Positions 6,170 to 39,101 of a stretch of 40,465 nt of DNA are shown in pieces. Position 1 is the first letter of the stretch; the number at the start of each line of letters is the position of its first letter. Source of the DNA: Sphaerobacteraceae bacterium (lineage in GTDB: Bacteria; Chloroflexota; Chloroflexia; Thermomicrobiales; Thermomicrobiaceae); assembly GCA_007695115.1 (NCBI GenBank), contig REEK01000092.1:1-40465 (forward strand), read 5' to 3'. The translations under genes were made by a program, and so were the position numbers. The notes under the pieces are model-generated. The model saw only the letters and a program-made list of their open reading frames with translations. It was not told the DNA's origin and ran no database searches.

Positions 6170-7116
6170 CGGAACCGGCTCTCGCTCGACCACACGCCAG
6201 CAGCCGCGTCATCCTGAACTTCGCTCCCGGAGATCACGCTCGTCGTGAAATCCCAGACGCGTGCCTGGATCAGCGCACGCATCTGATTCAGGGCATCCGA
6301 TAGTTCCGATCCGGTCTCTGCGCGAAACCGGGATGCCGGATCAGCATATTGACCTTCAACGAAATCCTCGACAGTTGCGAACTCATAGCCGAGATCACGG
6401 AAGCCCTCGATGATCTTGCGCAGCGCCATTCCGTCAGTCGAACCGTGGCCTATGTGCATCAGAATATTGGCGCCCGGTTCGGCAGCGTCCAGCGCGCGCC
6501 GCGTGACGTCCGATACGTCATGCCCGTACCACCCATAGGTGTCGACAGTCCACATGATGTTCTCAGTGAATCCAGCCTCGGCGAACGCTTCCAGCGTTGC
6601 GTCATCATAATCACCGTATGGAGGTCGGACATACGGGCGGGTGGTTACGCCGACCTGCGACATCACCAGTTCATCGGTACGCACCAGCTGCTCGATGATT
6701 TCGTCGCGGGACAACGGCTCAGTTGGTTCATGGATACTGGAGCCGGTGTACTCTCCGGTGAACGAGAAATGGTGCCACGTGTGATTGATCAGGTGGTGAC
6801 CTTCATCCACGATCCGCCGCATCAGATCGGGGTTGTTCTCGGCCCAGACGCCGGTGATCGCCCATGTGGAGACCACTCCGTATCTCCGGAGGATGTCGAG
6901 CACCTCCGCCCCATCTCCGCGATCGAAGGTCACATCGAACGTCAGGGCAACGACCTTTTCGTCCGTCTCGAACGTATCCCGCGTGATTACCTTTCCCGAC
7001 TCCGCGGATCCAGAAGGTGCGGCAAACACGCCAACGAACAAGCCGGCGACAAGAGTGCTGAGAAATACGGCAAACGTCAGTGAGCGGAGCATAATGGCCT
7101 GACCGGTTCTCGTCAT
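6166..7116 (-). CDS. Secreted polysaccharide deacetylase (NodB homology domain)
   Basis: A carbohydrate esterase family 4 protein (316 aa) expected to deacetylate peptidoglycan or another N-acetylated glycan outside the membrane. A signal peptide or anchor covers about residues 10-38. Motif 1 reads VALTFDVTFDRGDG instead of the usual TFDDG. Motif 2 is NHTWHH, motif 3 is RPPYGDYD, and the C-terminal histidine motif is LMHIGH. The metal-binding histidines are therefore present, but the second aspartate of motif 1 is valine, as in PdaB-like branches. The start could be ATG 7116 or ATG 7092; neither has a strong ribosome-binding site. It lies 14 bp after the GNAT gene and is probably co-transcribed with it. 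Confidence 0.85.
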   Translation of the reverse strand: MTRTGQAIMLRSLTFAVFLSTLVAGLFVGVFAAPSGSAESGKVITRDTFETDEKVVALTFDVTFDRGDGAEVLDILRRYGVVSTWAITGVWAENNPDLMRRIVDEGHHLINHTWHHFSFTGEYTGSSIHEPTEPLSRDEIIEQLVRTDELVMSQVGVTTRPYVRPPYGDYDDATLEAFAEAGFTENIMWTVDTYGWYGHDVSDVTRRALDAAEPGANILMHIGHGSTDGMALRKIIEGFRDLGYEFATVEDFVEGQYADPASRFRAETGSELSDALNQMRALIQARVWDFTTSVISGSEVQDDAAAGVWSSESRFR

Positions 7117-34260: not shown

Positions 34261-35652
34261 CTACTTACCCGCGTGAGCGATTGCCCGGGTCAACCCGTCT
34301 ACCAGGGCTGAATCCTGACCGGGCAACACCGTTCGTGCATCGATGATGAGACGATCGTGGTCGATATGCGGCATGATCGATGGCGTGCCAGTTCGCAGGG
34401 CGCGGGCAAGCTGATCGGGGTGTGGCGTATTGATTGCCAGGCCCCAGGACGGTATCACCTCATCCGGAAGCGATCCGCCACCGATCGTGGAGCTCGTCTC
34501 CACAATCGACACACCTTCCAGGTCCGACAACTGGTAGATCCAGTCTTCACAACGCAACCGGAGATATGCGCTGCTGGCCGAGATCATCTGCCAGACCGGC
34601 ACCTGCTCCAGCGCTTCACCCTTGATGTAGTGCCGCAGTGTCTCGGCGATCCCGGCCAGGGCAGTCTTGTCGGCTCTCATCGCCCGTGCCAGCGGATGAG
34701 CGCTGATTCGTTCAATGAGATCCTTCCGACCGGAAATGATCCCGGCCTGTGGCCCGCCGAGGAGTTTGTCACCGGAGAAACAGACGACATCGACCCCGTC
34801 ACGGATGCTCTCGGTCACCGTCGGCTCGTGGGGCAGGCCATACGGCGCGGTATCCAGAAGTGATCCTGAACCAAGGTCTTCAATCAACGGGATATGATGT
34901 CGATCGGCCAGTGCTGCCAGCTCAGCCTGAGTCGGCTGGGCCGTGAATCCAATGATCCGGAAGTTGCTCCAGTGAACGGTCAGCAGCGCCCCGGTTGAGT
35001 CGGATATCTCATGCTCATAATCCCGGACATAAGTCTTGTTGGTTGTGCCGACTTCGATCAGCGTAGCCCCACTCTGGGCAAGCACATCAGGAATGCGGAA
35101 CCCACCGCCGATCTCCACCGCCTGACTTCTGGAGAGAATGACCTCTTTGCCGGCGCAAAGTTCACTGAGGGCAAGCATCACCGCTGCAGCATTGTTGTTG
35201 ACCACCAGGCTGGCATCGGCACCAGTCAACAGCCGGAGCATCTCGCTGATCTCGGACATACGCCCACCTCGCTTGCCGGACTCGATCTGCAGTTCGAGCG
35301 GGGTATATCGACTGGCGGCCAGCGACATCGCCTCGGCGGCCGTTCTGCTCACCGGGGCACGACCGAGATTGGTATGAACGATTACCCCGGTGCCATTGAT
35401 GACTTCGTGAAGACGCTGCGAAACAACCCGTTTGGCGAGCATCTGGAGGTGTTCGCGAACCACACTCAACGGGTCTTCGGGAAGGTGGTCGCCGAGAATT
35501 CGGGATCGAACGTGATCCACAGATTCCCGGGCGAGCTGAGTGGTGATCGCCCGGTCGAGCTGAATCGTCACATCCCGGACGGCCGGATCACTGAGAACGG
35601 TATCTACTGATGGCAATCGACGGAGGGCACTGGCCTGCGACTCGGAGATCAC
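34261..35652 (-). CDS. selA: L-seryl-tRNA(Sec) selenium transferase
   Basis: SelA is a PLP enzyme that converts Ser-tRNA(Sec) to Sec-tRNA(Sec) with selenophosphate. The 463-aa protein has the N-terminal SelA domain (LPSVDTVL, then VINGTGVIVHTNLGRAPVS), the Fold-I core with TTNKTYVRDYE and the PLP lysine in FSGDKLLGGPQAG (K296, matching K295 of E. coli SelA), and the C-terminal block TGTPSIMPHIDHDRLIIDARTVLP. The start is GTG 35652 with a weak upstream site. No selB, selD or tRNA(Sec) is in the window. It lies downstream of a tRNA-Pro gene on the same strand, with a terminator between. Its presence implies selenocysteine use somewhere in the genome. Confidence 0.93.
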   Translation of the reverse strand: MISESQASALRRLPSVDTVLSDPAVRDVTIQLDRAITTQLARESVDHVRSRILGDHLPEDPLSVVREHLQMLAKRVVSQRLHEVINGTGVIVHTNLGRAPVSRTAAEAMSLAASRYTPLELQIESGKRGGRMSEISEMLRLLTGADASLVVNNNAAAVMLALSELCAGKEVILSRSQAVEIGGGFRIPDVLAQSGATLIEVGTTNKTYVRDYEHEISDSTGALLTVHWSNFRIIGFTAQPTQAELAALADRHHIPLIEDLGSGSLLDTAPYGLPHEPTVTESIRDGVDVVCFSGDKLLGGPQAGIISGRKDLIERISAHPLARAMRADKTALAGIAETLRHYIKGEALEQVPVWQMISASSAYLRLRCEDWIYQLSDLEGVSIVETSSTIGGGSLPDEVIPSWGLAINTPHPDQLARALRTGTPSIMPHIDHDRLIIDARTVLPGQDSALVDGLTRAIAHAGK

Positions 35653-36788: not shown

Positions 36789-36950
36789 TTGCGTTGTGCC
36801 ACTTCGAATGGAATAGAAATGACCGCTGATGCGTGTTAAAGTATCGGATGGCACAGTCACGAGCAGATCAGCATCCGAGCACGACAGCCATCACCGGAAG
36901 ATCCGCATCGAGAAAGGCAACGTTACTGCGTGCAGGGTCAATTGGAAAGC

Positions 36951-38252
36951 ATGAGTGAGCCGTCAGCTGAACAGCCGCTGATTGAGCGCGTAGCGATGCT
37001 CAGCGTGCATACCTCCCCGGTTGCCGCACTTGGCGGGCCCGACAGCGGCGGAATGAACGTTTATGTCAATGAGCTAAGCCGCTGGCTGGCCCGGACTGGA
37101 ATCAATGTCGACGTGTTTACACGTCGGTTAGATCAGACTACCCCGCGAATTCTCGAGCTCGAAGAAGGGCTTCGCCTGATTCAGGTGGAAGCCGGTCCTC
37201 CGCACCCAGTTCACAAAGATGAGCTCTTCTGCCACATTCCGGATTTTGCCAGCGATATGGCGTTTTTCGCTCTCCAGCAGGGTGTTCGCTACGATATTGT
37301 TCATGGGCACTACTGGCTTTCAGGGTGGGCAGCTCAGCTCCTGAAGGAGCACTGGCACGCTCCAACCGTGCAGATGTATCACACCATGGCCCACCTGAAG
37401 AACGCCGTCGCCACCGATGCCCATCGCGAAACGATTCTGCGCCTTCAGATCGAGCGTCGACTCGTCGAGATCTCTGACGGTCTCATAGCCGCGAATCCAG
37501 ACGAGCGCCAGGAGATGATCCACAAGCTCGGTGCGCCGTCTGACCAGATCCATCTGGTCCCGCCGGGAGTCGACCTCGAGCTATTCCAGCCACATGATCC
37601 AGAACAGGCCCGCACAGAACTCGACCTTCCCGACGGGCCGATCGTGCTCTTTGTCGGGCGCATCGATCCGGTCAAGGGAATCGACACGCTGTTCGCCGGC
37701 TTCAAACGGTTGCTGGACCAGCGCGACTGGGCCGGTGCCGAACCGACGCTCGTCTTCGTGGGTGGCGAGCTCGATGATTCAGGGGAGAGCCCGATCTTTG
37801 GCGATGCACTCCAGAAACTTCAGCAAGAAACCCGCGAACTCGGCATCGAGTCGCAGGTGCTCTTCCGGGGCTCACAAACTCGTGAACGCCTTCCACTGTA
37901 TTACAGCGCAGCGGATGTCTGTACCGTGCCGTCGCGCTATGAGTCGTTCGGGCTGGTCGCAGTCGAGGCGATGGCCTGTGGAACGCCGATCGTCGCCTCT
38001 CGCGTCGGTGGTCTGCAATTTACCGTGCGCGATGAGCAGTCAGGACTTCTGGTTCCGCACTCCGATCCTGTGGCACTTGCGGCCGGACTGGAGCGCGTGC
38101 TGACCGATGAACGCCTCTCCCGGACGCTCTGTGCTGGAGCCCGACGAGCAGCCATCCGATACTCATGGCAGATGGTCAGTACTTCGATGGTCGAGGTCTA
38201 TCAGCAGCTAGCGAATATCGAAGCTACAGCCCCGATCAAGGTCGCTCGTTAA
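36951..38252 (+). CDS. Glycosyltransferase family 4 (MshA/sucrose-phosphate-synthase-like)
   Basis: A 433-aa retaining GT-B glycosyltransferase. The N-terminal acceptor domain has LSVHTSPVAALGGPDSGGMNVYV, the pattern of MshA-type enzymes and sucrose-phosphate synthases, and HGHYWLSGWAA. The C-terminal nucleotide-sugar domain has LFVGRIDPVKGIDTL, then PSRYESFGLVAVEAMACGTPIVAS with the E-x7-E motif, and GLLVPHSDPVALA. MshA would imply mycothiol synthesis, but no other mycothiol gene is present, so only the family is assigned. ATG 36951 is chosen; a GTG at 36930 is possible and neither has a strong ribosome-binding site. Confidence 0.85.
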   Translation: MSEPSAEQPLIERVAMLSVHTSPVAALGGPDSGGMNVYVNELSRWLARTGINVDVFTRRLDQTTPRILELEEGLRLIQVEAGPPHPVHKDELFCHIPDFASDMAFFALQQGVRYDIVHGHYWLSGWAAQLLKEHWHAPTVQMYHTMAHLKNAVATDAHRETILRLQIERRLVEISDGLIAANPDERQEMIHKLGAPSDQIHLVPPGVDLELFQPHDPEQARTELDLPDGPIVLFVGRIDPVKGIDTLFAGFKRLLDQRDWAGAEPTLVFVGGELDDSGESPIFGDALQKLQQETRELGIESQVLFRGSQTRERLPLYYSAADVCTVPSRYESFGLVAVEAMACGTPIVASRVGGLQFTVRDEQSGLLVPHSDPVALAAGLERVLTDERLSRTLCAGARRAAIRYSWQMVSTSMVEVYQQLANIEATAPIKVAR

Positions 38253-38393
38253 CCGTTCTGGCGATTGACGTCCCAGCATAGCTATACTCAGGGTGTTCAA
38301 CCGGGCACTCAATCGGCAAGCAGTACACTCCAGCCTGGCCCGCAACGTTGACGAAACCGACGGCAGTTGCGCACAGAAAGGATCTGCACGCCG

Positions 38394-39101
38394 ATGCCAG
38401 CAATCATTGATTCGAATGTCTGCGACAAGAACTGGGCAGCCTGTTTCCCGGCCCGTATGTGTCCGGAAAGCGCCTTTTCCTACGATCCCGACGCCAACCT
38501 GGTTAACATCGATTTTTCACTGTGCGGCGACTGTCCCGGACCATGTGTGAACTTCTGCGACCAGTACGCGATCCGCTACACACCGGATCACAACGAGTTC
38601 GACGTCCTCAAGAAGCTGACACTGGGTGAGATCACCGAGGAAGAAGCGATCGAGGAGCGTGAGCAACTCAAGGAGACGGCGGAGGCCGAACAGGAAGCCG
38701 AAGATATCCAGGTCGATTCGACGATCAACGCCACGGCCGAGACGTTCAATGATGTCGTGTTGAAGTCAGACATCCCGGTCATCGTCGATTTCTGGGCTCC
38801 GTGGTGCGGTCCGTGCCAGCAGATGGGCCCGATCTTCGAAAAACTGGCCGAGCAGTATCAAGGCAGCATCAAGTTCGTGAAGGTCAATACCGACGAGGAA
38901 CAGCAACTGGCAGCCCAGTATCAGATCACCTCACTACCCACCACCGCGCTGTTCTGGCAGGGTCAGGCGCTGGACACCTTCGCCGGTGCGCTGTCTGAAC
39001 AACAGCTCCAGTCACTCGCCTATCAGTTCCTTGCGGCAGTGCAGTCGCATCAGGGCGCGGCCCCGCCACCTCAGGGCAACCCGGACGACATTATCCGGTA
39101 G
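38394..39101 (+). CDS. Cysteine-rich ferredoxin-like domain fused to thioredoxin
   Basis: This 235-aa protein has two parts. Residues 1-65 hold seven cysteines: C10, C17, C23 (CPESAF) and C44, C47, C51, C55 in CGDCPGPCVNFCDQYAI. The second group resembles a [4Fe-4S] ferredoxin motif with one extra residue; the first looks like a degenerate partner. An acidic helical linker covers about 70-105 (ITEEEAIEEREQLKET). Residues about 107-215 form a thioredoxin domain with active site WAPWCGPCQQMGP (C138, C141) and the cis-proline segment TSLPTTALF. The tail is Pro/Gly-rich. It is probably cytoplasmic, as no signal peptide is seen. ATG 38394 follows AAAGGA by about 11 nt. Electron flow from an Fe-S centre to the thioredoxin disulfide is an inference. 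Confidence 0.82.
   Translation: MPAIIDSNVCDKNWAACFPARMCPESAFSYDPDANLVNIDFSLCGDCPGPCVNFCDQYAIRYTPDHNEFDVLKKLTLGEITEEEAIEEREQLKETAEAEQEAEDIQVDSTINATAETFNDVVLKSDIPVIVDFWAPWCGPCQQMGPIFEKLAEQYQGSIKFVKVNTDEEQQLAAQYQITSLPTTALFWQGQALDTFAGALSEQQLQSLAYQFLAAVQSHQGAAPPPQGNPDDIIR

Follow-up and report, generated by a model that had tools for sequence, protein, structure and literature searches.

Among small redox carriers, ferredoxin and thioredoxin are the two principal ones, and they are known as separate proteins that are bridged by dedicated reductases. Passing electrons directly from an ordinary Fe-S cluster to a disulfide is a two-electron step, for which the known systems use the special cluster of FTR or a flavin. 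Cys-rich extensions of thioredoxin are also known; the N-domain of E. coli Trx2 (TrxC) is a short zinc motif with four Cys, not a ferredoxin domain. In the FTR system, ferredoxin, FTR with its catalytic [4Fe-4S] subunit and Trx m/f are separate proteins. In FFTR, ferredoxin electrons reach Trx through a flavoenzyme (PMC12796991, PMC10880999). FTR and flavin enzymes are the links between ferredoxin and thioredoxin described so far (PMC12796991, PMC10880999).

The DNA analysed here (the window) is a stretch of 40,465 nucleotides from a Sphaerobacteraceae bacterium, and it encodes a protein in which a ferredoxin-type head, an acidic linker and a thioredoxin are joined in one chain. Similar to the FTR system, the fusion would combine ferredoxin and thioredoxin along one electron path, but in a single chain. 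Its proposed flow of ferredoxin electrons to Trx is that of FFTR, although the fusion has no flavin domain. Like Trx2, in which the N-domain binds metal, it places a Cys-rich N-domain before a WCGPC thioredoxin. The fusion is a new domain architecture made from known modules: the combination is unusual, and both halves belong to known superfamilies. Our literature search, which left subscription journals mostly outside its reach, found no published description of a ferredoxin-thioredoxin fusion.

Architecture of the fusion protein

The ORF, its coordinates and its frame were checked and found to be correct (Table 1).

Table 1. Features of the fusion gene and its flanks (positions in the window).
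Feature	Position	Strand	Evidence
Fusion gene, 235 aa: ferredoxin-type head + linker + thioredoxin	38394..39101	+	ORF/translation; full-length homologues
Ferredoxin-type domain, residues 1-62	38394..38579	+	7 invariant Cys; profile matches to ferredoxins
Head Cys codons	38421 (C10), 38442 (C17), 38460 (C23, then Pro), 38523 (C44), 38532 (C47), 38544 (C51), 38556 (C55)	+	
Acidic linker, residues 63-108, predicted helix 82-106	38580..38717	+	
Thioredoxin domain, residues 109-213	38718..39032	+	PF00085, TIGR01068, structural match
WCGPC active site, residues 137-141	38802..38816	+	
GAAAGGA, Shine-Dalgarno-like, 11 bases 5' of ATG	38376..38382	+	Read from sequence
Terminator-like hairpin, 42 bases 3' of stop codon	39143..39166	+	1 found vs 0.7 expected by chance: weak
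MshA-like GT4 glycosyltransferase, upstream neighbour	36930..38252	+	TIGR03449 359 bits, below cut-off 462

A first-pass annotation of this DNA had described seven Cys within the first 55 residues, four of them spaced C-x2-C-x3-C-x3-C ahead of an AI pair. The Cys count is correct, and the last four have this spacing and are followed by DQYAI. When the head was searched as a single sequence, no Pfam model reached its cut-off; the matches were sub-threshold Fer4 models, with PF12838 as the best (E=0.02, 15.5 bits against a gathering score of 27). Direct Pfam and PDB sequence searches were set aside, as they returned these sub-threshold matches together with chance ones such as the IL-7 receptor. 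The heads of other family members reached E=0.0014 at best against Pfam Fer4.

Profile comparisons were more informative. A profile of the head finds stand-alone Chloroflexota ferredoxins that have a first motif of C-x5-C-x5-CP and a canonical second motif, and that themselves exceed the Pfam Fer4 cut-off. Profile-profile alignment of the head with these proteins gave a score of 68.5 (probability 98%, residues 2-61). Since E-values of pairwise profile alignments are not database-wide, shuffles were used as the control: with the Cys columns fixed and the others shuffled, the maximum in 100 shuffles was 29.9. Aligned with FdxA, the 7Fe-type ferredoxin of this genome, the head scored 41.2, and the maximum in Cys-kept shuffles was 22.4. 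The real scores exceeded those of all Cys-fixed shuffles, and therefore the likeness of the head to ferredoxins is not due to cysteine spacing alone.

Structural predictions point in the same direction with less force. The predicted secondary structure, of modest confidence, is strand-(helix)-strand-strand-strand, which is the ferredoxin order. The structure model of the head has a low confidence (pLDDT 63). All 18 structures that matched its fold at Z>=2 carry a 4Fe-4S ferredoxin, with weak Z values of only 2-3, and Foldseek returned nothing under E=1 with this model. Taken together, these analyses identify the head as a ferredoxin domain of bacterial type, though a divergent one. It was placed outside the existing models as a divergent ferredoxin relative because it falls below the Fer4 gathering scores.

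Alignment to 7Fe ferredoxins assigns C23, C44, C47 and C51 to the ligands of a [4Fe-4S] cluster, and C10, C17 and C55 to those of a [3Fe-4S] cluster; where ferredoxin motif 1 usually has its second Cys, the head has no conserved one. This pattern of three plus four Cys suggests a head with [3Fe-4S][4Fe-4S] clusters, in which the C10, C17 and C55 site would hold either [3Fe-4S] or a site-differentiated, open-site [4Fe-4S]. The FdxA of the same genome (L126) shares the seven-Cys ligand set, the C-P after the fourth motif-1 ligand and a similar core length. The two differ in the first motif (C-x6-C-x5-CP in the head, C-x7-C-x3-CP in FdxA) and in the second (C-x2-C-x3-C and C-x2-C-x2-C), which ends in D in the head and P in FdxA, and only the head is fused to Trx. 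Four stand-alone ferredoxins of 59-60 aa (L078, L083, L084, L098; CPQNHxCP-x4-C) have an odd first motif, C-x5-C-x5-C, in common with the head. Unlike the fusion, they have a canonical second motif and no thioredoxin domain.

The other half of the protein was more easily assigned. Its thioredoxin domain matched PF00085 with 106 bits (E=1e-30) and TIGR01068 with 117 bits (cut-off 96.8), and structural comparison with solved thioredoxins gave Z values of about 20-21. The key residues are all present, with the buried Asp132, Lys163 and cis-Pro182 accompanying WCGPC. As annotated earlier, then, the thioredoxin domain is complete, and its sequence is that of an active-looking, reductase-type protein. 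The acidic helical linker was likewise borne out, with 17 D/E against 4 K/R in residues 63-109 in addition to the predicted helix.

Distribution and conservation

Proteins of this architecture form a family that is conserved across at least 21 genomes of Chloroflexota/Thermomicrobiota. Full-length homologues were found in a total of 21 genomes, with one copy cut by a contig end. Within the genus to which the window belongs, all five genomes carry it; the others are three Sphaerobacter-like genomes, two from another family of the order, nine further genomes of the class and two outside it (G169, G184). Beyond Chloroflexota, the survey consisted of one pattern scan (C[LTV]NFCDxxA[LI]) over a collection of 84,980 species genomes. 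It found 17 relatives, which were titled Chloroflexi, Chloroflexia, Chloroflexaceae, Chloroheliaceae, Sphaerobacter or Thermomicrobiaceae.

The first-pass annotation had named homologues without conserved N-terminal Cys as grounds for refuting its reading, and such losses were specifically looked for. None was seen: in an alignment of 18 proteins, all seven Cys are invariant within the first 65 residues, along with M1, P2, P24, N53, F54, D56 and A59. The G184 homologue has a second motif of CARACPMN and also keeps the seven Cys. The fusion is therefore real, and the shared MP start and invariant positions show that the head is neither a chance occurrence nor the product of a mis-called start. 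CGPC is lost in one of the 18 aligned homologues (L062), which retains every head Cys; the constraint on the head is thus no weaker than that on the active site of the thioredoxin. In a tree of thioredoxin domains, the 18 from fusion proteins cluster together. This is compatible with a single origin of the fusion, which the clustering neither shows nor excludes.

The exceptional homologue (L062:6001-6702) has SPRAGQ in place of CGPC. A separate active thioredoxin gene lies 0.3 kb 3' of it (L062:7035-7373), an arrangement that looks like a transfer of the dithiol function to a second protein.

Thioredoxin reduction in the host and in other carriers

Candidate systems for thioredoxin reduction were sought in the genome of the window (G000), which was searched one family at a time. 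There was no match to the FTR catalytic subunit (PF02943) in this genome, while the controls were positive, and no flavin thioredoxin reductase of the FFTR type was recognised in it. One candidate for an FFTR partner, L109, was rejected: its closest solved relatives are 3fbs (3e-96) and DepH (5e-92), GliT comes next, and the Gloeobacter-type reductase 5j60 reaches just 1.9e-16. No NADPH thioredoxin reductase (NTR/TrxB) exceeded the curated cut-off in G000, nor in any searched genome of Thermomicrobiaceae and the Sphaerobacter relatives, including sister genera that have no fusion. TrxB absence in MAGs may reflect gaps; G000 is 98.5% complete, however, and the absence agrees in all genus members and in a two-contig Sphaerobacter-like genome (G005). 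What G000 does carry is a TrxR-type reductase without CxxC, which we take from knowledge of the family to be a ferredoxin-NADP reductase, and two main Trx-domain proteins, the fusion and a normal TrxA. Having neither FTR nor TrxB, this gene set favours a ferredoxin-linked supply of electrons.

Other carriers are equipped differently. Canonical TrxB exceeded the cut-off in seven of the 19 fusion carriers of the class. In G184, outside the class, the fusion gene, a canonical NADPH trxB directly downstream and a glutaredoxin-like gene follow one another on one strand. The fusion is therefore not simply a substitute for thioredoxin reductase. A role as replacement for the NADPH enzyme was discarded for the same reason and because the fusion-less sister genera also lack NTR.

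Proposed role of the fusion

Three electron routes were weighed: from the head to Trx; from NADPH and TrxB to Trx, with the head as a sensor or dock; and a route in which Trx protects the head. The reading that we consider most likely, with about even confidence, is that of a single-chain, tethered ferredoxin/thioredoxin redox carrier. The head, a divergent ferredoxin domain with the ligand pattern of 7Fe ferredoxins, would be tethered by the flexible acidic helix to a fully equipped, reductase-type thioredoxin. It would dock to ferredoxin partners of the cell, such as the ferredoxin-NADP reductase-like protein of G000, and electrons at the ferredoxin level would be coupled to the thioredoxin disulfide. 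The coupling may occur by contact between head and dithiol, or a separate reductase may be offered donor and acceptor side by side. Where a lineage has TrxB, this enzyme could reduce the thioredoxin half as it does other thioredoxins. Several points weigh against the carrier: the sub-threshold Pfam scores and low-confidence model of the head, the two electrons needed for direct cluster-to-disulfide transfer, the TrxB of seven carriers of the class and of G184, the NTR-less sister genera that have no fusion, and the loss of CGPC in L062.

The main rival, which we regard as possible but clearly less probable, is that the head is regulatory or targeting: it would sense oxygen or redox state, or dock Trx to an Fe-S enzyme or a ferredoxin-binding client, while an ordinary reductase reduces Trx and no electrons pass between the halves. 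The trxB adjoining the fusion gene in G184 and the TrxB of the f10/f11 carriers agree with this, as do the head kept on a CGPC-less Trx scaffold in L062 and the finding that no neighbour of the fusion gene is conserved across lineages among the neighbourhoods compared. On the other hand, the window's own genus has no recognisable NTR, and pure docking would not require seven invariant ligands. It was the gene set of G000, set against the TrxB carriers, G184 and L062, that led us to choose the tethered carrier and to keep the regulatory or docking head as its chief competitor. A stronger form of electron transfer appears improbable, namely that the chain by itself acts as a ferredoxin-dependent disulfide reductase and serves the TrxB-less Thermomicrobiaceae as their thioredoxin-reducing system. 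Here, the head would be charged by ferredoxin-NADP reductase or 2-oxoacid:ferredoxin oxidoreductase and would reduce its own Trx without FTR or a flavin thioredoxin reductase. L062, with seven Cys and no CGPC, and the trxB next to the G184 fusion speak against obligatory transfer within the chain. The original proposal is thus supported in part: the intact Trx, the invariant Cys and the matches tested with Cys-kept shuffles bear out the joining of a ferredoxin-like head to a full thioredoxin, and an Fe-S centre with passage of electrons to the dithiol is a prediction.

The first-pass annotation had also offered zinc or persulfide chemistry for the head Cys, and neither drew support from the sequence. 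A zinc-binding N-domain like that of Trx2, with the Cys holding Zn and tuning the thioredoxin, is rather unlikely. Trx2 is a known case of a Cys-rich N-domain before Trx, and TrxC (NF008229) was among the best whole-protein matches. The score of 123.9 bits falls short of the cut-off of 125, however, and the match covers the linker and Trx (residues 89-207) and includes no head Cys. Further, seven Cys with a C-P motif suit 3+4 cluster ligands rather than Zn4 sets, and the profile matches of the head are to Fe-S ferredoxins and to no zinc family. Least likely, and very improbable in our view, is that the head Cys serve sulfur or persulfide chemistry or a transient cluster in Fe-S assembly or repair, kept reduced by the thioredoxin. 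A tied thioredoxin could indeed keep many Cys reduced, but nothing specific favours this; the Cys are spaced like the ligands of a ferredoxin, and no isc or suf genes were found near any fusion copy when the neighbourhoods were read by eye.

That such a fusion occurs naturally and is conserved suggests that these lineages have their own way of coupling electrons at the ferredoxin level to the control of thiol redox state. The fusion is also relevant to the maintenance of reduced thioredoxin in those Thermomicrobia in which no thioredoxin reductase is recognisable, and it makes electron exchange between an ordinary ferredoxin-type cluster and a tethered dithiol testable.

Gene surroundings

No plasmid copies of the fusion gene were found. 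Its downstream neighbour in the window is an SDR dehydrogenase. In Thermomicrobiaceae, in Sphaerobacter and in two other lineages, the MshA-like glycosyltransferase adjoins the fusion gene, and it may belong to a low-molecular-weight thiol or sugar pathway. A link to mycothiol was considered and set aside: the adjacency is kept in Thermomicrobia only and the protein scores below the MshA cut-off.

Elsewhere in the window, a gene at 34261-35652 (minus strand) was read by eye as selA (selenocysteine synthase), and selenocysteine may therefore be used in this lineage; neither of the two tRNAs near it is for Sec, as they are Pro(cgg) and Arg(cct). In agreement with the tethered carrier, G315 has a stand-alone ferredoxin of the head's type and, about 0.8 kb away in the same orientation, a trx gene. 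A 59-aa stand-alone ferredoxin of the unusual type was observed near a trx gene in a distant Chloroflexota genome (L103:5498-5677 and 6490-6831, minus strand), with a PerR/Fur-like regulator nearby by eye.
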